A stretch of 29,169 nucleotides of DNA, from the IMG/VR virus record IMGVR_UViG_3300021959_000278, positions 1 to 29,169 of that record. One strand, given 5' to 3'. A program made the translations under genes and the position numbers. Of this stretch, positions 5,038 to 29,115 are shown piece by piece. This DNA is from a virus. The notes beneath the pieces were generated by a model, which saw only the letters and a program-made list of their open reading frames with translations, was not told the DNA's origin and did no database searches. The first letter of the stretch is position 1, and each line of letters begins with the position of its first letter.

Positions 5038-5535
5038 ATGGCAACAATAGATCAATTTAAAGCACAACTAATCGGTGGAGGCCCTAGAGCTAACCGATTT
5101 AGAGTTTTCATTCCTAGAACTGGTAATCGAATAGAGTTTCTATGTCGTGCAGCTAACTTACCTGCTGGAACCCTAACATCATTTGACATCAAATGGATGG
5201 GTACAACACTCAAACTTCCTGGCGACAGGACATTTGAGAACTGGGAAGTAACTGTAATCAATGATGCAGAATTTTCTGTAAGAACTGCCGTAGAAAATTG
5301 GCAGAATGAAATCGTTGGTTTCACAGATGGTAGAGGTAGTACCACATTAGATTTTATGGTTGACAGAGCATATGTTGAACAACTAGATAAAGCTGATTCA
5401 GTTTTAGCGAGATATGAATTCTTCAATATGTGGCCAACTAGTATAGGTAATGTTGAACTTAACTACGAAACTGTTGACGCATTAGAAACATTTACAGTTG
5501 GTTTCGCTTTCTCACACTGGGAAAGAGTAATCTAA
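5038..5535 (+). CDS. 19: tail tube protein (gp19-like)
   Basis: At 165 residues it nearly equals T4 gp19. It shows the tube fold signature: an early FRVFIPRTGNRIEFLCRAANLP strand pair (about 22-43), a loop ending in LKLPGDRTFENWEVTVIND (about 60-78), and a C-terminal ALETFTVGFAFSHW. Subunits stack as hexamers to form the rigid tube inside the sheath. The ribosome site TTAGGAG overlaps the sheath stop. An inverted repeat and a late promoter lie directly after the gene. A second tube-fold protein is encoded at 11538-12074. Confidence 0.95.
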   Translation: MATIDQFKAQLIGGGPRANRFRVFIPRTGNRIEFLCRAANLPAGTLTSFDIKWMGTTLKLPGDRTFENWEVTVINDAEFSVRTAVENWQNEIVGFTDGRGSTTLDFMVDRAYVEQLDKADSVLARYEFFNMWPTSIGNVELNYETVDALETFTVGFAFSHWERVI

Positions 5536-10966: not shown

Positions 10967-10996
10967 AGAGGGGTCTTTTGACCCCTCTTTTTTTTT
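10967..10996 (+). terminator. rho-independent terminator after gp23
   Basis: AGAGGGGTC (10967-10975) pairs perfectly with GACCCCTCT (10980-10988) around a TTTT loop, followed by T residues through 10996. This is the only textbook intrinsic terminator I can see in the window, and it closes the head gene block. Confidence 0.95.
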
Positions 10997-11329: not shown

Positions 11330-11554
11330 ATGTCAGAATATGCAAAAGAAGTGAAAGTGTTAGAAGGGCCATGGGAAAGGAATGCATTTCCCAATGGTAT
11401 AGAAACAACTAATGTATTGAATCGTAAAATCATTACACAGTATGTAAAAGATGGTTATCTTTGTGAAAAAACTGTTACAAGAGAATACAAAGGAAATGAC
11501 TACTTTGATACCACCTCAACAAAAAGGATTATAAAACTTGACAACAATCAATAA
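11330..11554 (+). CDS. small phage protein, function unknown
   Basis: The 74-residue product starts MSEYAKEVKVLEGPWERNAF with ACGGAG ten nt upstream. Alternating hydrophobic and charged residues (NVLNRKIITQYVKDG, KTVTREYKGNDYF) suggest a small beta-rich domain. No recognised motif or membrane segment is seen. Its 3' end overlaps the following structural gene by 17 nt, suggesting coupled translation and late expression. I do not recognise a family. Confidence 0.7.
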   Translation: MSEYAKEVKVLEGPWERNAFPNGIETTNVLNRKIITQYVKDGYLCEKTVTREYKGNDYFDTTSTKRIIKLDNNQ

Positions 11555-12074
11555 GTCTATACTTAATAAAAACAACTTTAGATTACTGATAGATAAGGTA
11601 CCTACTGTAGAGTACTATGTTCAGTCAGTCAATATCCCAGGCTTACAGTTTTCAGAAACAGTGCAAGCTGCTGGTGTCGGTTTGGATGCATATTTTCCAG
11701 GCGACAAGGTGACATTTGGTACACTTGATGTAACCTTTCTTGTTGATGAGGACTTAGAAAACTTCAAAGAAATATACGATTGGATTGATGCAATCGTTCC
11801 TGTTGCAGATCCATCTGCATATCAGGCATATACTTCAACAGTAAAAACCTCTACAGGTTTAGTAAGTGCAATAGACAATGATCTAAATCAATACAGTGAT
11901 ATTACACTTGTTATAAACACAAACAAAAATGTTCCCAATAAGTTCTTTCGTTTCCACGATTGTTTCCCTATATCATTGGGTGCATTAGAATTACAATCAG
12001 GTGCAGAAAGTGAAGCAGTGACATGTCAAGTGTCATTTAGATTTACATATTATAATATAGAATCCACTTCCTAA
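11538..12074 (+). CDS. tail-tube-fold virion protein (gp19-like paralog)
   Basis: This 178-residue protein shares the layout of the tube protein gp19 in this same window. NNFRLLIDKVPTVEYYVQ, then SVNIPGL, a PGDKVTFGTLDVTFLVDED segment and IYDWI line up with gp19 FRVFIPRTGNRIEFL, AANLPAG, PGDRTFENWEVTVIND and VENW. The C-terminus FPISLGALEL followed by VSFRFTYYNIE is the usual closing strand pair. Tube-fold proteins include tube subunits, tube initiators and baseplate tube proteins, so this one may be a tube-end or baseplate component. By position it is also where marine relatives may carry the tail-completion gene 3, whose size is similar. It overlaps the preceding gene by 17 nt. Confidence 0.7.
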   Translation: MTTINKSILNKNNFRLLIDKVPTVEYYVQSVNIPGLQFSETVQAAGVGLDAYFPGDKVTFGTLDVTFLVDEDLENFKEIYDWIDAIVPVADPSAYQAYTSTVKTSTGLVSAIDNDLNQYSDITLVINTNKNVPNKFFRFHDCFPISLGALELQSGAESEAVTCQVSFRFTYYNIESTS

Positions 12075-20897: not shown

Positions 20898-21459
20898 CCG
20901 TCTCATTTACTGGAGTGCAACCCACACACATAAAAGAGCGTTGGGTGATGGTTCAGACTACACTGGATATAACAAGGTACACATAAAGGATCATTGGGTT
21001 AGAGATACACTCAATGCACTAGAGTGTATTGCAATCACTGAAATCAGAAAGGAAACGGATCAAATAGTTTTCCCTGAAATGACTACTATTACAGAATGGC
21101 CTATAGGTGGAATTCAAGAACCTCATACAGACATCTACACTAACTCAGAAATAGAGAGTGATACTAAAGATCCTAACCCAAGTAGAGAGTGGACTGCAAT
21201 AGTTTACCTCAATACCAACTACACTGGGGGAAGAACTTATTTTCCACCTAGTGATTATAACTCAATACTATACACACACCAACCTGAGACTTGTCAGATG
21301 ATATTATTTCAGGGTATCTATCACCCCCATGGGGTAGAAAAAGTGTTTAGAAATTCTAGACACACAGTTGCAATGTGGTTTACCACAAATAAAGATCGCA
21401 TTCTAACAGATTACATCACCGAAGATCTTTCCCTAGATCAATTCACCCTAAGAAAATAA
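20836..21459 (+). CDS. 2OG-Fe(II) oxygenase, prolyl-4-hydroxylase-like
   Basis: The 207-residue protein carries the iron triad H97 and D99 (PHTDIY) and H165 (YHPHGV), with R175 (NSRHTVAMWF) for 2-oxoglutarate. The double-stranded beta-helix strands AIVYLNTNYTGGRTYFP and CQMILFQGIYHPHG are typical of prolyl-4-hydroxylase-like enzymes. It differs from the PKHD-type enzyme at 12548 and is not a recent duplicate. The ATG used here overlaps deformylase by 62 nt; a later start would remove the first strands, so the overlap seems real. Substrate unknown. No terminator follows, but a strong early-type promoter begins about 20 nt after the stop. Confidence 0.87.
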   Translation: MKKVKFKILTVNQVLSQQEADRLIYWSATHTHKRALGDGSDYTGYNKVHIKDHWVRDTLNALECIAITEIRKETDQIVFPEMTTITEWPIGGIQEPHTDIYTNSEIESDTKDPNPSREWTAIVYLNTNYTGGRTYFPPSDYNSILYTHQPETCQMILFQGIYHPHGVEKVFRNSRHTVAMWFTTNKDRILTDYITEDLSLDQFTLRK

Positions 21460-21482
21460 TTTATCTTTTTTCTCTCTAGGGG

Positions 21483-21512
21483 TTGACAATACCCCCTACT
21501 TTTTTATATAAT
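21483..21512 (+). promoter_or_regulatory. sigma70-type early promoter (first of three)
   Basis: TTGACA (21483-21488), 18 nt, TATAAT (21507-21512). The surrounding bases, GGTTGACAATA before and CTTTTTTATATAATTAAAA with ATGATGAG after, recur almost unchanged at 24390. It should be read by unmodified host RNA polymerase early in infection. Confidence 0.9.
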
Positions 21513-21540
21513 TAAAACATGATGAGAAAAGGAGATAAAA

Positions 21541-21744
21541 ATGTCACATTTTAGTAAACAAATACTTGCAGACAGAGCAGTTGATGATGCAATCGCTCTA
21601 GTCGATACATTTTCTGATATGAAAGTAAAACAAGTCCTTCACCTAAACTTTGGTGTTAGGGATGGAGATAGAGACGACCTAGTAGAATTCATTGCAAATG
21701 ATTTCTTCAACGACTACATGAATGCCCCTACCCCACATGGGTAA
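21541..21744 (+). CDS. small early protein, function unknown
   Basis: This 67-residue acidic protein begins MSHFSKQILADRAVDDAIAL, with AAAAGGAG 6-7 nt before the start and its own near-consensus promoter. It reads as two helices joined by a short beta segment (QVLHLNFGVRDGDRDDLVEF), ending NDYMNAPTPHG. No motif is recognised. A second promoter of the same type follows 35 nt later, so this gene forms a one-gene early unit. Small, strongly expressed early phage proteins often bind host regulators, but nothing here names a target. Confidence 0.75.
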   Translation: MSHFSKQILADRAVDDAIALVDTFSDMKVKQVLHLNFGVRDGDRDDLVEFIANDFFNDYMNAPTPHG

Positions 21745-21778: not shown

Positions 21779-21808
21779 TTGACAATACCCTTCACTTTTT
21801 AGTATACT
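21779..21808 (+). promoter_or_regulatory. sigma70-type early promoter (second of three)
   Basis: TTGACA (21779-21784), 18 nt, TATACT (21803-21808), with the same TTGACAATACCC upstream half as the first. The ATG of the CobT-like gene is only 8 nt past the -10, so this transcript would be leaderless or nearly so. Confidence 0.8.
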
Positions 21809-21815
21809 TAATATT

Positions 21816-24107: not shown

Positions 24108-24385
24108 TGGGAATAAATGCAATACAATTAGATACAGATTACTACTGGGGAACCATGTCGGATGGTGCATACAACAAGTTTGCAGATGCAGTTCAAGATG
24201 TCGGGCCTAGTCCTTGTAAAAAGTTTGATTGTCCTAGACAATCTCTTTGTGCAACGGAAGGAGTAGAATGTAAAGCTTTTAGGTTTTGGGTAAACAATGG
24301 ATCATTAGAAACCTATTCTTTAAAAGAGGATAAGAAGATTTCTATTGAGAAAGATATCCAAAGAATTTTGAGAAATTGTGAATAA
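24107..24385 (+). CDS. small Cys4 protein, function unknown
   Basis: The 92-residue protein overlaps the CobT-like stop by 1 nt (TAATG), with AAGGAG upstream in the coding end. Four cysteines lie in a compact cluster, C37, C42, C48 and C55 (PCKKFDCPRQSLCATEGVEC), suggesting a zinc or iron-sulfur site. The N-terminus is DTDYYWGTMSDGAYNKFADA and the C-terminus is a charged helix. It is sandwiched between the VWA protein and the AAA+ ATPase, so it may be a partner of that pair. I know no named family. Confidence 0.75.
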   Translation: MGINAIQLDTDYYWGTMSDGAYNKFADAVQDVGPSPCKKFDCPRQSLCATEGVECKAFRFWVNNGSLETYSLKEDKKISIEKDIQRILRNCE

Positions 24386-24389
24386 AGGG

Positions 24390-24419
24390 TTGACAATAGC
24401 GACAACTTTTTTATATAAT
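24390..24419 (+). promoter_or_regulatory. sigma70-type early promoter (third of three)
   Basis: TTGACA (24390-24395), 18 nt, TATAAT (24414-24419). The stretch from the -10 to ATGATGAG is nearly identical to that at 21507. It drives the CobS-like gene, leaving a roughly 28-nt leader with AAGGAG. Confidence 0.9.
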
Positions 24420-24453
24420 TAAAAAATGATGAGTAATAATAAGGAGACTGCTT

Positions 24454-25707
24454 ATGAATAAAAGAACCTATGATAGGTCGGAGAGTGTTACCGTTGCAGG
24501 TAAACCTTTCCATTTTACGCCAGATAGAAAGGAATTTCTAACTGCACTAACCACAAACTTCCCCAATCAGGTGGAGTTTACTTCAGAACAGATCAACCAA
24601 GTAGGAGACTTTCCATACTGGATAAAATCTGCAAGGTATAATTTCAAACAAAATGGGGTTTTCAATCTATCCCAAGTTTTGAATGTGGTGCCTATGACCA
24701 AGACTACACCACCACCAAAAGCTTTTATGCCTACTGCACCTAAGGTATCGAATATGCCTGTTGCAGCTCAGACACAAAAGACAATCAATCTTATTGAGGA
24801 CAATGTAAAAATCATTCCTGAGAAGATGACAAACTATGTTCCTTTTGGTCATTTCAAAGATGTAGAGAATATCATCAAGTCTAAGATATTCTTTCCAATC
24901 TTTATTACTGGTCTAAGTGGTAATGGTAAGACACTTATGGTTGAACAAGTGTGTGCTAAACTCAAGAGAGAACTCTACAGGGTCAATATCACCATCGAGA
25001 CAGATGAAGATGATTTGATGGGTGGACACACTTTAGTCAATGGTAACATTACTTTCAGAGAAGGCCCAGTTATCAAAGCTATGAGAAAAGGTGCCGTCCT
25101 TCTCTTAGACGAAGTTGACTTGGGTTCTAACAAAATGATGTGTTTACAATCAGTTCTTGAGGGTAAAGGATATCTAATCAAGAAAACTGGTGAATGGGTA
25201 TCTCCTGCAGAAGGGTTCACAGTGGTTGCAACTGCAAACACTAAAGGACAAGGATCTGAGGATGGTAAATTCATTGGAACTCAAATCATGAACGAAGCTA
25301 TGTTGGAAAGGTTTGCTATTTCAATGCAACAAGAATATCCACCAGTCAATATTGAGAGAAAAATTCTTGAAAAGGAAATGGAACTTCATGGTGAAGTTGA
25401 TATGGAGTTTATCAAGAAACTTGTAGACTGGGCGGACATTATCAGAAAAACCTACTACGAAGGTGCAATTGATGATGTCATCACCACTAGAAGATTGGTT
25501 CACATCATCAACGCATTCAAAATGTTTGGTGATAAACTCAAGTCAATCCAAATGTGTATCACAAGATTTGACGAAGATACCAAGAATGCAATACTTGATC
25601 TCTATTCTAAAATAGACGAAGGTGTTGATGTGTCAGGAATGTTTGGTGAAGTATCGGAAGATACCTCATCAGACGAGGATTACCAAGAGGATACACAATA
25701 TCCATAA
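24454..25707 (+). CDS. cobS: MoxR/CobS-like AAA+ ATPase
   Basis: This 417-residue AAA+ protein shows Walker A GLSGNGKT at 153-160, Walker B VLLLDE at 215-220, sensor 1 VVATANTKG near 253-261 and the arginine-finger region NEAMLERF near 277. DEDDLMGGHTLVNGN near 184-198 and the insert before Walker B are typical of CobS/MoxR ATPases. Residues 1-130 form an extra N-terminal domain with a Pro-rich linker (TTPPPKAFMPTAP). Marine T4-like phages commonly encode a protein annotated CobS. Bacterial CobS with CobT and CobN inserts cobalt into corrin, but no CobN is here, and the nearby VWA protein suggests a remodelling pair. The C-terminus is acidic. Confidence 0.92.
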   Translation: MNKRTYDRSESVTVAGKPFHFTPDRKEFLTALTTNFPNQVEFTSEQINQVGDFPYWIKSARYNFKQNGVFNLSQVLNVVPMTKTTPPPKAFMPTAPKVSNMPVAAQTQKTINLIEDNVKIIPEKMTNYVPFGHFKDVENIIKSKIFFPIFITGLSGNGKTLMVEQVCAKLKRELYRVNITIETDEDDLMGGHTLVNGNITFREGPVIKAMRKGAVLLLDEVDLGSNKMMCLQSVLEGKGYLIKKTGEWVSPAEGFTVVATANTKGQGSEDGKFIGTQIMNEAMLERFAISMQQEYPPVNIERKILEKEMELHGEVDMEFIKKLVDWADIIRKTYYEGAIDDVITTRRLVHIINAFKMFGDKLKSIQMCITRFDEDTKNAILDLYSKIDEGVDVSGMFGEVSEDTSSDEDYQEDTQYP

Positions 25708-25743: not shown

Positions 25744-26053
25744 GAGTAAAATGTTTAGAAAGTTTGAGAAAGTTGGGTACAAATACGAGGAAGATAAACT
25801 CCTCAAAGAATTGCGTACCTATATTGACGGAACCTACAAACAACATTACAGTCTGAACAACTTTCAGTCCACAGAGTTCATTATTGATAGTGGACACGGT
25901 GAAGGATTTTGTATCGGAAACATACTCAAGTATGCACAACGATACGGAAAAAAGGACGGAAAGAACAGAGCAGATTTATTGAAAGTATTGCACTACGCTC
26001 TAATAATGTTACATGTGCATGATAAGGAGAAAAAGAGTGGAAATGAAAATTAG
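25742..26053 (+). CDS. DUF3310-like small protein
   Basis: From ATG 25742 the product has 103 residues (MSKMFRKFEKVGYKYEED); ATG 25751 is an alternative, giving 100. The frame is open further upstream but overlaps the ATPase gene, so the later starts are preferred. GGAAG at 25733-25737 is a possible ribosome site. GFCIGNILKYAQRYGKKDG followed by RADLLKVLHYALIML is the core pattern of DUF3310, a family widespread in phages and annotated as nucleotide-kinase-like without proof. It overlaps the gp45 start by 11 nt, so clamp translation is coupled to it. Confidence 0.8.
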   Translation: MSKMFRKFEKVGYKYEEDKLLKELRTYIDGTYKQHYSLNNFQSTEFIIDSGHGEGFCIGNILKYAQRYGKKDGKNRADLLKVLHYALIMLHVHDKEKKSGNEN

Positions 26054-26708
26054 TAATGACACTAGAAATATATTGAAAAACTTTTCTACCATCAACAGTG
26101 GTATCAAAGTAAAAACTGGGAACAAGTTGGAAACAATTTCTAACATGAAGAACATACTTGCAGTTGCAACGGTAGATGAGACATTTCCCAAAAATTTCTC
26201 TATCTACAATCTACCTGAGTTCTTAGGTGCAACTTCTTTATTGGAAGATGCAGACTATGAGTTTGGGGATGTAAGTGTATCTATCTCTGATACAGATAGT
26301 TCACTTTCATATTTTTATGCAAGTGAGGGTATGATTACTGCACCTGAGAAAGAGGTCAAGATGCCTGAGGCAGAAGTAAACATAACTGTATCCTCTACAC
26401 TACTTTCTGAATTACAGAAAGCTGCAAGTGTTTTAGGAGTAAATGACTTAGTTCTGAAATCTGATGGTACTACTATCTCTCTTGTTGTAGTTGATAAGAA
26501 AAACCCAACTTCAAATACATTCTCAAGAATAGTTGGTGAAGGTAGTGGAACAACTTTCACTTTCAATTTCAAAATCGAGAACTTGAAAATTCTTGATGGT
26601 AATTATGATGTTGCAGTATCGTCTAAAGGAATATCCCATTTCAAAAACAAGGATGTTGATTTAGAGTACTTTATTGCACTCGAACCTGATTCAAAATATG
26701 GTTCTTAG
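26043..26708 (+). CDS. 45: DNA polymerase sliding clamp (gp45-like)
   Basis: The start chosen is ATG 26043, giving MKISNDTRNILKNFSTINSG, which matches the T4 gp45 opening MKLSKDTTALLKNFATINSG. Upstream in-frame ATG codons would add ten unrelated residues. The 221-residue protein is near T4 gp45 (228) and forms a trimeric ring that tethers the polymerase and also activates late transcription with gp55 and gp33. Conserved pieces include FSIYNLPEFLGATSLL and the domain-2 strands FNFKIENLKILDGNYDVAVSS. It overlaps the DUF3310 gene by 11 nt. A late promoter motif and three hairpins follow. Confidence 0.95.
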   Translation: MKISNDTRNILKNFSTINSGIKVKTGNKLETISNMKNILAVATVDETFPKNFSIYNLPEFLGATSLLEDADYEFGDVSVSISDTDSSLSYFYASEGMITAPEKEVKMPEAEVNITVSSTLLSELQKAASVLGVNDLVLKSDGTTISLVVVDKKNPTSNTFSRIVGEGSGTTFTFNFKIENLKILDGNYDVAVSSKGISHFKNKDVDLEYFIALEPDSKYGS

Positions 26709-26716
26709 TATAAATA
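26709..26716 (+). promoter_or_regulatory. T4-type late promoter motif between gp45 and gp44
   Basis: A perfect TATAAATA starts one base after the gp45 stop. The predicted transcript would begin near 26722, just before the first hairpin, so the three hairpins would form its entire 5' leader. A late promoter for a clamp loader is unexpected. Confidence 0.6.
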
Positions 26717-26728
26717 ATACTACAAACG

Positions 26729-26831
26729 GCAGTAAGAAATTCAGTCTCTATTCTTACTGCGGGAGTATCCGAAAATCTCATCATTGTTCTCTTTGGGTCG
26801 GATACACGAACAAATCGGCGGGGGTTTGTTC
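26729..26831 (+). ncRNA. three-hairpin structured leader before gp44
   Basis: Three perfect inverted repeats follow each other. The first is GCAGTAAGAA (26729-26738) with TTCTTACTGC (26751-26760). The second is GTATCCGA (26765-26772) with TCGGATAC (26798-26805), enclosing 25 nt. The third is GAACAAA (26808-26814) with TTTGTTC (26825-26831), with GGCGGGGG in its loop. The last stem ends 3 nt before the TTG start of gp44, and its G-rich loop holds the only Shine-Dalgarno-like sequence. It may be a cis-regulatory leader or a small RNA. I do not recognise an RNA family. Confidence 0.65.
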
Positions 26832-26834
26832 ACT

Positions 26835-27782
26835 TTGAATACTGAATTTTTATATGTGGAGAAATATAGACCTCAAACCATTGAGGAAACCATACTTCCT
26901 AAACCAATCAAAAACACTTTCAATGAGTTTGTAAAGAAAGGTGAAATACCTAATCTTATGTTGTGTGGTTCTGCTGGTGTAGGTAAAACTACTATTGCAA
27001 AGGCACTTTGTAATGAGTTGGGTGCAGACTTCATTGTGATCAATGGTTCTGATGAAGGACGATTGATCGACACACTACGAACCAAGATCAAAAACTTTGC
27101 ATCTACAACATCTTTGGGTGGAGGCCCTAAGGTGGTTATACTAGACGAAGCAGATTATATAAGTGCAGAGAGTGTTCAACCTGCATTGAGAAACTTCATT
27201 GAGGAGTTCTCATCCAACTGTAGGTTTATTTTTACTTGCAATTACAAGAATAGAATTATTGCACCTCTACACTCACGAACTACTGTCATTGACTTCTCTT
27301 TGACACCTCAGGACAAACAACAACTTGCAGGTCAATTTCTTTCACGACTAGAAGAAATTTGCACTACAGAGAATATCAAATACGATCAAAAGGTTCTTGT
27401 AGAACTTATACTCAAGTTCTTTCCTGATTTCAGAAGATGTATCAACGAAGTTCAAAGATACGGAGTATCAGGAGAGATTGATAGTGGTTTACTTGCAACA
27501 CTAACTGAAGAAAAACTAACTCCTCTCATAACTACTATACAAGAGAAAAACTGGAAAGGAATGAGGAAGTGGGTTGCACAAAACTCAGACAATGATTTCA
27601 ATACACTTTATCGTAAAGTGTTCAATGCATTAGAAACAAAATTACAACCAACATCACTTCCTGCAGCTGTTTTGATCATTGCAGATTATCAACATAAAGC
27701 TGCCTTTGCAATGGATAGTGAGATCAACTTTGTTGCTTGTTTGACAGAGATTATGTCAGAATGTAAATTTAGAGGAGACTGA
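26835..27782 (+). CDS. 44: clamp loader large subunit (gp44-like), TTG start
   Basis: No ATG precedes the conserved region. TTG 26835 gives (M)NTEFLYVEKYRPQTIEET, which places the VEKYRP motif where relatives have it; longer starts would run through the hairpins. The 315-residue protein equals T4 gp44 (319). It shows Walker A GSAGVGKT at about 45-52, Walker B VVILDEAD with D104/E105, sensor 1 FTCN near 132-135, and HSRT near 146-149, where the usual SRC motif has Thr for Cys. With gp62 it opens and loads the gp45 clamp. The gene after it starts 1 nt past the stop. Confidence 0.92.
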   Translation: MNTEFLYVEKYRPQTIEETILPKPIKNTFNEFVKKGEIPNLMLCGSAGVGKTTIAKALCNELGADFIVINGSDEGRLIDTLRTKIKNFASTTSLGGGPKVVILDEADYISAESVQPALRNFIEEFSSNCRFIFTCNYKNRIIAPLHSRTTVIDFSLTPQDKQQLAGQFLSRLEEICTTENIKYDQKVLVELILKFFPDFRRCINEVQRYGVSGEIDSGLLATLTEEKLTPLITTIQEKNWKGMRKWVAQNSDNDFNTLYRKVFNALETKLQPTSLPAAVLIIADYQHKAAFAMDSEINFVACLTEIMSECKFRGD

Positions 27783-27783
27783 T

Positions 27784-28083
27784 ATGGGACAATATGACGA
27801 TAGAGTAGAAAGACAGAGAGTTCTGTTGGAGGCAGAGGAATGGGCAAAGGGGGTGAAATCCATTCATGCACACAGACTTCAATCCTTGTGGTATGACAAT
27901 AGACCCATGGATACATTTGAGGGTAGTGTATGTGACACTACCTACAATGATGATTCTATCAAACGAGAACTAGAAAATGGTAAGGTCGTTTGGATGAATT
28001 CTGAAAAGAAAACAGGTGACGATCTTATTGATCAATATCTCAAAAAAGTCAATCCTTCTAAAACACAGCGTATTCTATTGTAA
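27784..28083 (+). CDS. small protein between gp44 and gp62, function unknown
   Basis: The 99-residue product (MGQYDDRVERQRVLLEAEEW) begins right after gp44, with AGAGGAG in the gp44 end as ribosome site. It is charged, with an N-terminal helix, an aromatic middle (SIHAHRLQSLWYDNRPMDTF) and a basic C-terminus LKKVNPSKTQRILL. T4 has no gene here. Location inside the clamp-loader operon suggests expression at the same time as the replisome, but there is no motif to assign a role. Confidence 0.75.
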   Translation: MGQYDDRVERQRVLLEAEEWAKGVKSIHAHRLQSLWYDNRPMDTFEGSVCDTTYNDDSIKRELENGKVVWMNSEKKTGDDLIDQYLKKVNPSKTQRILL

Positions 28084-28084
28084 T

Positions 28085-28477
28085 ATGGATAAGACTAATC
28101 CTTTTGACTTTGTCAAGTCAGTGTCATATACAAAAAAAGACATCATGTTTGATGAAGTCGAGGAAAAGTCTTATGCACCATTCCTAACCAATAAAGCATT
28201 ATCCTATCACCAAGATAGTATCATTTTTGCAAACGAAATGAACATCAGACACGGTGCAGATAGTCGTCTTCAATACCTGTTTTTCCTAAATACTTTGAGA
28301 AAAAGAAATAGGTTTTCCACATGGATAAAACCTTATCAGAGTCAAAAACTCGAAGTTATTAGACAAGCATATCAGGTAAGCACCAAAGAGGCGAAAGACT
28401 ATGCATCACTGTTATCTGAAAGTCAATATCGTGAGTTGAAAAAAAGAATGAACATTGGTGGTCAGGATAATGGATGA
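28085..28477 (+). CDS. 62: clamp loader small subunit (gp62-like)
   Basis: ATG 28085, one base after the previous stop, gives a 130-residue protein starting MDKTNPFDFVKSVSYTKKDI. The NPFDFVK opening, the PFLTNKALSYHQDSIIFANEMN segment (split by convention at 20), the RLQYLFFLNTLRKRNRFSTW segment and the closing LSESQYRELKKRM match marine gp62 proteins; T4 gp62 is longer (187). An in-frame upstream ATG would add 23 residues overlapping the previous gene and is not supported. It is the single arm of the gp44-gp62 loader. The end overlaps regA by 8 nt, preserving the T4 order. Confidence 0.88.
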   Translation: MDKTNPFDFVKSVSYTKKDIMFDEVEEKSYAPFLTNKALSYHQDSIIFANEMNIRHGADSRLQYLFFLNTLRKRNRFSTWIKPYQSQKLEVIRQAYQVSTKEAKDYASLLSESQYRELKKRMNIGGQDNG

Positions 28478-28865
28478 AATAATAAAAAACTTAGTCGAAG
28501 TAACTTTTGATAAAGATGACGATTTCTTAAAAATCAAAGAGACACTATCAAGAATAGGTGTTGCATCACGAAAAGAACAAGAACTGTTTCAATCGTGTCA
28601 TATACTTCACAAAAGAGGTAAATACTACATCGTACACTTCAAAGAACTTTTTATGTTAGATGGGAAACCAACTAACATTGATGAGAATGACATTGGTAGA
28701 AGGAATACAATTGTAAGACTTTTACAACAATGGAATCTCTTGAAAGTGGTTGACAAGGGTCAGATAGAAGAACCACAAGCTCCTCTATCACAGATCAAGG
28801 TCATACCTTATAAAGAAAAGAGTATGTGGAAGTTGACTACTAAATACTCTATAGGTGTAAAATAG
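28470..28865 (+). CDS. regA: RegA translational repressor
   Basis: Starting at ATG 28470 the protein has 131 residues (T4 RegA 122). An upstream ATG at 28455 adds MVVRI and is less likely. FLKIKETLSRIGVASRKE, FQSCHILHKRGKYYIVHFKE and DGKPTNIDENDIGRR match T4 RegA nearly along its length. RegA binds ribosome sites of early mRNAs and blocks their translation; in T4 the gene 44 and 45 messages are targets. Here regA follows gp62 with 8-nt overlap. In T4 DNA polymerase gene 43 comes next, but here small membrane genes follow. Confidence 0.95.
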   Translation: MDEIIKNLVEVTFDKDDDFLKIKETLSRIGVASRKEQELFQSCHILHKRGKYYIVHFKELFMLDGKPTNIDENDIGRRNTIVRLLQQWNLLKVVDKGQIEEPQAPLSQIKVIPYKEKSMWKLTTKYSIGVK

Positions 28866-28867
28866 TA

Positions 28868-28875
28868 TATAAATA
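28868..28875 (+). promoter_or_regulatory. T4-type late promoter before the membrane gene pair
   Basis: A perfect TATAAATA just after the regA stop. The predicted start near 28881 gives a 28-nt leader with a strong AAAGGAGG site. It separates early regA from a late unit. Confidence 0.85.
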
Positions 28876-28908: not shown

Positions 28909-29115
28909 ATGTTTCAAGGCATAATCGACTTCGTTATGGGGATATGGAACCTTCTAATGATCGTTCCAATTGTAATATCAATCTGTAGTGTTATTGTCGC
29001 ATTGACACCAACACCACATGATGACAAGTTATGGGCCAAGGTATATAAATACCTTGAAGTTCTTGCACTTGCCGTTGGTAAAGCAAAGGACAAAAATCCA
29101 TTACTTGACAAGTAA
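28909..29115 (+). CDS. small membrane protein, possibly holin-like
   Basis: The 68-residue product has one hydrophobic segment at about residues 4-32 (IIDFVMGIWNLLMIVPIVIS, continuing into ICSVIVALTPTP) and a hydrophilic tail DDKLWAKVYKYLEVLALAVG ending in KDKNPLLDK. It is preceded by AAAGGAGG, the strongest ribosome site in the window, and by a late promoter. Size, membrane segment and late timing fit a holin or another small envelope protein, but no family is certain. A second small hydrophobic gene starts 18 nt later. Confidence 0.75.
   Translation: MFQGIIDFVMGIWNLLMIVPIVISICSVIVALTPTPHDDKLWAKVYKYLEVLALAVGKAKDKNPLLDK

Follow-up and report, generated by a model that had tools for sequence, protein, structure and literature searches.

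A three-hairpin RNA element between the sliding-clamp and clamp-loader genes of uncultured marine T4-like phages

What does the non-coding gap between gene 45 (sliding clamp) and gene 44 (clamp-loader large subunit) contain, and what might it do for the phages that carry it? The question was raised by a stretch of viral DNA of 29,169 nucleotides (IMG/VR record IMGVR_UViG_3300021959_000278), analysed as a whole and hereafter called the window. It is attributed to an uncultured marine T4-like phage because its nearest cultured relatives in a capsid comparison are pelagiphage HTVC008M and Methylophilales phage Melnitz (65% identity). No cultured member of the ocean phage group described below was found. 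A first-pass annotation had seen in this gap three consecutive hairpins, interpreted as a dedicated RNA element, in a genome where gaps would normally stay below 40 nt. The last point holds in part: the 45-44 gap is among the longest non-coding ones, but other gaps also exceed 40 nt (e.g. 21459-21541 and 24385-24454).

The 45-44 gap in the window

Three perfect stems of 10, 8 and 7 bp were read directly from the sequence within 26729-26831 (103 nt). The features of the locus are as follows.

26043-26708, + strand: gene 45, sliding clamp (PHROG 223, E 9e-72), stop codon TAG at 26706-26708
26709-26716, + strand: TATAAATA, T4-type late promoter box, perfect in the window
26725-26831, + strand: full extent of the conserved RNA (positions 1-101 of covariance model R1)
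26729-26760, + strand: hairpin 1, GCAGUAAGAA/UUCUUACUGC, 26729-26738 with 26751-26760, 10 bp
26743-26748, + strand: AGUCUC in the apical loop of hairpin 1, each position at least 95% conserved
26761-26764, + strand: unpaired linker GGGA, invariant in 68/68 distinct sequences
26765-26805, + strand: hairpin 2, GUAUCCGA/UCGGAUAC, 26765-26772 with 26798-26805, 8 bp
26777-26782, + strand: CUCAUC in hairpin 2, near-invariant
26806-26807, + strand: AC between hairpins 2 and 3, conserved at 93% and 99%
26808-26831, + strand: hairpin 3, GAACAAA/UUUGUUC, 26808-26814 with 26825-26831, 7 bp (9 in the fold)
26817-26822, + strand: loop GGCGGG of hairpin 3, part of the invariant GGHGGGG
26835-27782, + strand: gene 44, clamp-loader large subunit, TTG start (PHROG 168, E 4e-121)
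27784-28083, + strand: gene of an orphan 99-aa protein, 3' of gene 44, found only in RNA-bearing phages
28455-28865: regA, downstream of gene 44 in the same operon

The start of gene 45 was placed at 26043, where the alignment of the relatives begins; a further in-frame ATG lies at 26013. As for gene 44, the TTG start proposed earlier was retained: it lies 11 nt from the GGHGGGG loop, which is the commonest spacing among relatives (19/46), and the resulting N-terminus, MNTEF, is shared with some of them.

The fold energy of 26709-26860 is -40.5 kcal/mol (z = -4.1), none of 200 shuffled sequences being equally stable, and just 3 of 1163 sliding windows across the 29-kb sequence are more stable than the 103-nt fold. 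Most relatives have a shorter and less regular hairpin 1 than the window, and the CUC of CUCAUC in hairpin 2 probably pairs with GGG at 26795-26797. The stability of hairpin 3 is modest, with a median of -5.8 kcal/mol. No intrinsic terminator was called within the element on the + strand of the window.

Elsewhere in the window, TTGACA...TATAAT-like promoters with similar surroundings (TTGACAATA..CCC..CTTTTT) precede genes at 21483-21512, 21780-21810 and 24390-24419, and probably constitute an early promoter family. Two tail-tube genes (gp19-like, PHROG 45) are present in this one phage, at 5038-5535 and 11538-12074, and a strong intrinsic-terminator-like hairpin (GAGGGGTCTTTTGACCCCTC followed by a T run) lies behind the major capsid gene, at 10967-10995.

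Covariation and distribution among relatives

Scanning IMG/VR with gp45 and gp44 provided about 50 distinct 45-44 gaps, and the same layout was found in them despite gp45 identities down to 60%. A seed alignment of 30 relatives, from which the window was left out, supports 31 base pairs: 88% of its cells are paired and 23 of the 31 pairs have changed on both sides, while slid controls reach about 33-55% pairing vs. 88-90% at the true register. The covariance model derived from this seed matches the window at 66.1 bits (E 2.1e-15), with no other match in the 29 kb, as well as 73 other contigs; among its matches are 48 members retrieved by a motif scan. The diverged held-out loci L108, L114, L109 and L111 are also matched; most other loci of that search, which are largely unrelated, have no match to the model.

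When 68 distinct sequences were considered, compensatory changes were found at 26 of the 31 base pairs, including 11 of 12 in hairpin 1 and all seven in the stem of hairpin 2 (99.6% paired). In a ranking of covariation free of structural constraints, the top 17 column pairs are all base pairs of the model, and RNAalifold alone recovers the same three hairpins. Pairing is less certain towards the inside of hairpin 2 and for the uppermost two or three base pairs of hairpin 3. Concerning the strand, GU/UG wobbles outnumber AC/CA by 107 to 14, and the gene strand is therefore the strand that folds. Compensatory changes, the mark by which a dedicated RNA element was to be recognised, are thus present, and this comparison of sequences shows an RNA with three hairpins on the gene strand, always in the gap that separates gene 45 from gene 44. 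An outer helix AGUGU/ACACU, seen by eye, was dropped since it is absent from the covarying pairs.

The near-invariant nucleotides are unpaired: AGUCUC in loop 1, the GGGA linker, CUCAUC in hairpin 2 and GG-GGG in loop 3. Fixed unpaired nucleotides amid freely covarying stems resemble a specific binding site, and those of this leader may well form one. The invariant loops show no covariation, the signal by which tertiary contacts would be recognised. A loop-loop pairing of CUCAUC with GGHGGG is not supported, as H varies (U/A/C) with the partner unchanged. UCUC of loop 1 and GGGA are pairable on paper; both are invariant and lack covariation, and hairpin 1 leaves no linker.

All members sit in the 45-44 gap, directly after gene 45, and the 13 long records searched whole, among them a 140-kb contig, have one copy each. 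Within one gp44 clade, made up of uncultured T4-like marine phages, the RNA was present in every member sampled (83 of 83); some of these were retrieved via the RNA motif itself, and none retrieved by gp45 or gp44 is RNA-less. These 83 sequences form a single group on the gp44 tree (SH-aLRT 97), on which the RNA requires one change, with no loss inside its clade. It is absent from 64/64 sequences outside the clade, HTVC008M, Melnitz and cyanophages included. RNA-less phages include some with 45-44 gaps of 18 and 22 nt; the RNA was not found in cyanophage and pelagiphage 45-44 gaps, and the long gap of S-CAM9 appears to contain a short ORF instead. When 84,980 genomes of bacteria and archaea were scanned, two matches were obtained, neither of which fits the covariance model. 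A loose pattern scan for the element was abandoned, chance matches being predominant.

The statement that no RNA family matches was borne out: the window has no match in Rfam 15 at the gathering score, and searching Rfam with L094, L105, L083 and L108 at E up to 10 gave none over the element. No paper describing it was found in the open-access literature. The marine-only Ocean-VI motif (PMC2864571) has no Rfam accession; judged against Rfam, where Ocean-VI has no model, the element is a genuine new RNA family by its sequence: a conserved covarying structure before one gene, enclosing its ribosome site. The support for this family is about as strong as comparative sequence allows.

The ribosome site of gene 44 and the late promoter box

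The G-rich ribosome-site candidate noticed in hairpin 3 proved to be the sole SD-like sequence in all 46 close-start relatives, that is, distinct loci whose ATG lies under 20 nt past loop 3, as judged by a rough motif test. A separate SD-like motif was found in five of the ten listed distant-start loci, among which are loci with a tRNA or ORF insertion and the window itself, whose TTG start was not counted by the script. Other genes of RNA-bearing phages carry ordinary aggag-type sites, whereas gene 44 appears to rely on a G-run that lies within the fold of hairpin 3. That this run is the only SD-like sequence in most RNA-bearing phages is the chief reason to propose translational control in cis. 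When the same rough test is applied to RNA-less relatives, a clear SD precedes gene 44 in just 27 of 44; a missing stand-alone SD thus also occurs outside RNA-bearing phages.

Loop 3 does not vary even in L108, L114 and L216, where a separate SD of gene 44 lies further on, and SD function alone is therefore an insufficient explanation of its conservation. In L108, a tRNA-Gly(GCC) at 2900-2973 is inserted between the RNA and gene 44, which there has its own GGAG. In L006 (3780-4125; also in L007 and L010), an orphan ORF of about 115 aa separates the RNA from gene 44, and its ATG occupies the expected position of the gene 44 ATG.

We favour, at a probability of about 0.58, the reading of the element as a cis-acting leader RNA of gene 44, which would probably control the amount of clamp loader.

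The late promoter box raises another reading, already proposed in the first-pass annotation, namely a small RNA made late in infection. T4 late promoters have a TATA box of 8 bp, which lies roughly one turn ahead of the transcript start (PMC2988020). The box before hairpin 1 is indeed perfect in the window, so that transcription would be expected to start about one helical turn downstream, and the same TATAAATA is found ahead of genes 18, 20 and 22, both here and in two relatives. Among 49 distinct leaders, the box at the RNA is exact in 6 (vs. 0.8% in shuffles), within one mismatch in 16 (vs. 10%), and has two or more mismatches in 33; in several leaders it is absent. The RNA is retained in relatives where the box is gone. 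Late transcription from the box is thus likely in the phage of the window, without being a defining part of the element, and the idea of a late small RNA is weaker than that of a leader.

A discrete regulatory RNA acting in trans, running from the late promoter to an end after hairpin 3 and binding a protein or other RNAs through its C/U- and G-rich loops, would fit the perfect box just before hairpin 1, the excess of exact boxes over shuffles, the persistence of the element where a tRNA or an ORF is inserted behind it, and the UUUUU directly after hairpin 3 in L108, the only locus with such a U run. We regard it as unlikely, since many relatives have an off-consensus promoter or none, a conserved terminator is missing, and the element contains the only SD of gene 44, away from which it is never found.

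Proposed role and comparison with known systems

The position of the element between two genes of one operon, with stable hairpins directly behind the gene 45 stop, would also suit an mRNA processing or stability element, allowing unequal amounts of clamp and clamp loader. Generic stability hairpins need no invariant loops or linker, however, and with GGGA kept in 68/68 sequences this role appears rather improbable.

A further suggestion was that RegA might be the ligand. In T4, RegA binds and represses gene 44 mRNA (PMC3014915), and regA lies downstream in the same operon of the window. The RegA operators of T4 and RB69, that of gene 44 included, thus share with the element the translational control of gene 44 itself. 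The T4 sites, however, lack structure, are rich in A+U and lie at the AUG or immediately ahead of it (PMC3014915), whereas the conserved part of the element is structured and reaches up to 100 nt upstream; moreover, regA is also present in RNA-less relatives (46/64 loci). A RegA operator is accordingly very improbable here. Finally, the possibility that the motifs are codons, either of a leader peptide (an attenuator) or of an extended gene product, is rejected as next to impossible. One frame (GGA GTx ...) is stop-free in 54 of 74 members, but stops occur in the other 20, and in the window this frame lacks a start codon. Every frame has stops in some members, the three codon positions have similar numbers of substitutions (217/188/237), and some indels have lengths not divisible by three.

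Other phage leaders offer likenesses to the cis-acting leader that we prefer. The autoregulatory hairpin of gene 43 in T4 and RB69 also lies upstream of the ribosome site of a replisome gene and controls its translation, but it is a single hairpin with a UAAC loop (PMC3014915), while the element has three, with loops CCAGUCUC, AUCA and GGHGGG. The gene 32 leader of T4, T2 and RB69 is likewise a structured RNA controlling translation of a T4-type replication gene; its H-type pseudoknot (PMC3014915) and A+U-rich repeats bound by gp32 are features neither of which is shown in the element. manA, wcaG and PhotoRC-II (PMC2864571) and the Melnitz glutamine riboswitch (PMC9004378) are structured cis RNAs of marine T4-like phages as well, with different structures and genes. 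Riboswitches are described as rare in phages (PMC9004378).

Within the preferred reading, 16S rRNA would have to reach the G-run inside hairpin 3, which would then set the translation of gene 44 and perhaps, by coupling, that of the genes that follow, as far as regA. A putative phage- or host-encoded regulator (protein, metabolite or RNA) would recognise hairpins 1 and 2 together with the GGGA linker, and its binding may open or lock hairpin 3. The RNA would act in the read-through mRNA; in window-like phages it would probably act at the 5' end of late transcripts as well.

Concerning possible partners, the orphan 99-aa protein is encoded at 66 of the 67 RNA-bearing loci where regA is within reach vs. 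0 of 46 RNA-less loci; the sole exception is L108, which has the lowest-scoring RNA. The protein has no Pfam, PHROG, PDB or fold match, nor does its predicted structure (pLDDT 84) have a structural one. As a partner of the RNA it is a speculative candidate, and shared ancestry alone could explain the co-occurrence. A separate observation concerns the region behind regA, where a small hydrophobic ORF of 68 aa (window 28909-29115), with TATAAATA ahead of it at 28868, belongs to the RNA-bearing clade only (60/83 vs. 0/64 loci).

The gp45 clamp also feeds late transcription. A more ambitious and still tentative proposal is that the leader is a sensor RNA, riboswitch-like or sensing a replisome protein, which would make clamp-loader synthesis depend, throughout the clade, on how far replication or late transcription has progressed or is active, possibly with the 99-aa protein as partner.

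The structured RNAs reported in marine T4-like phages are mostly on metabolic, photosynthesis and tmRNA genes, and this one is on the core replication machine. As a leader of gene 44, it would be a specific control point of that machine, and at 105 nt the RNA is small enough for structure work and ligand searches.
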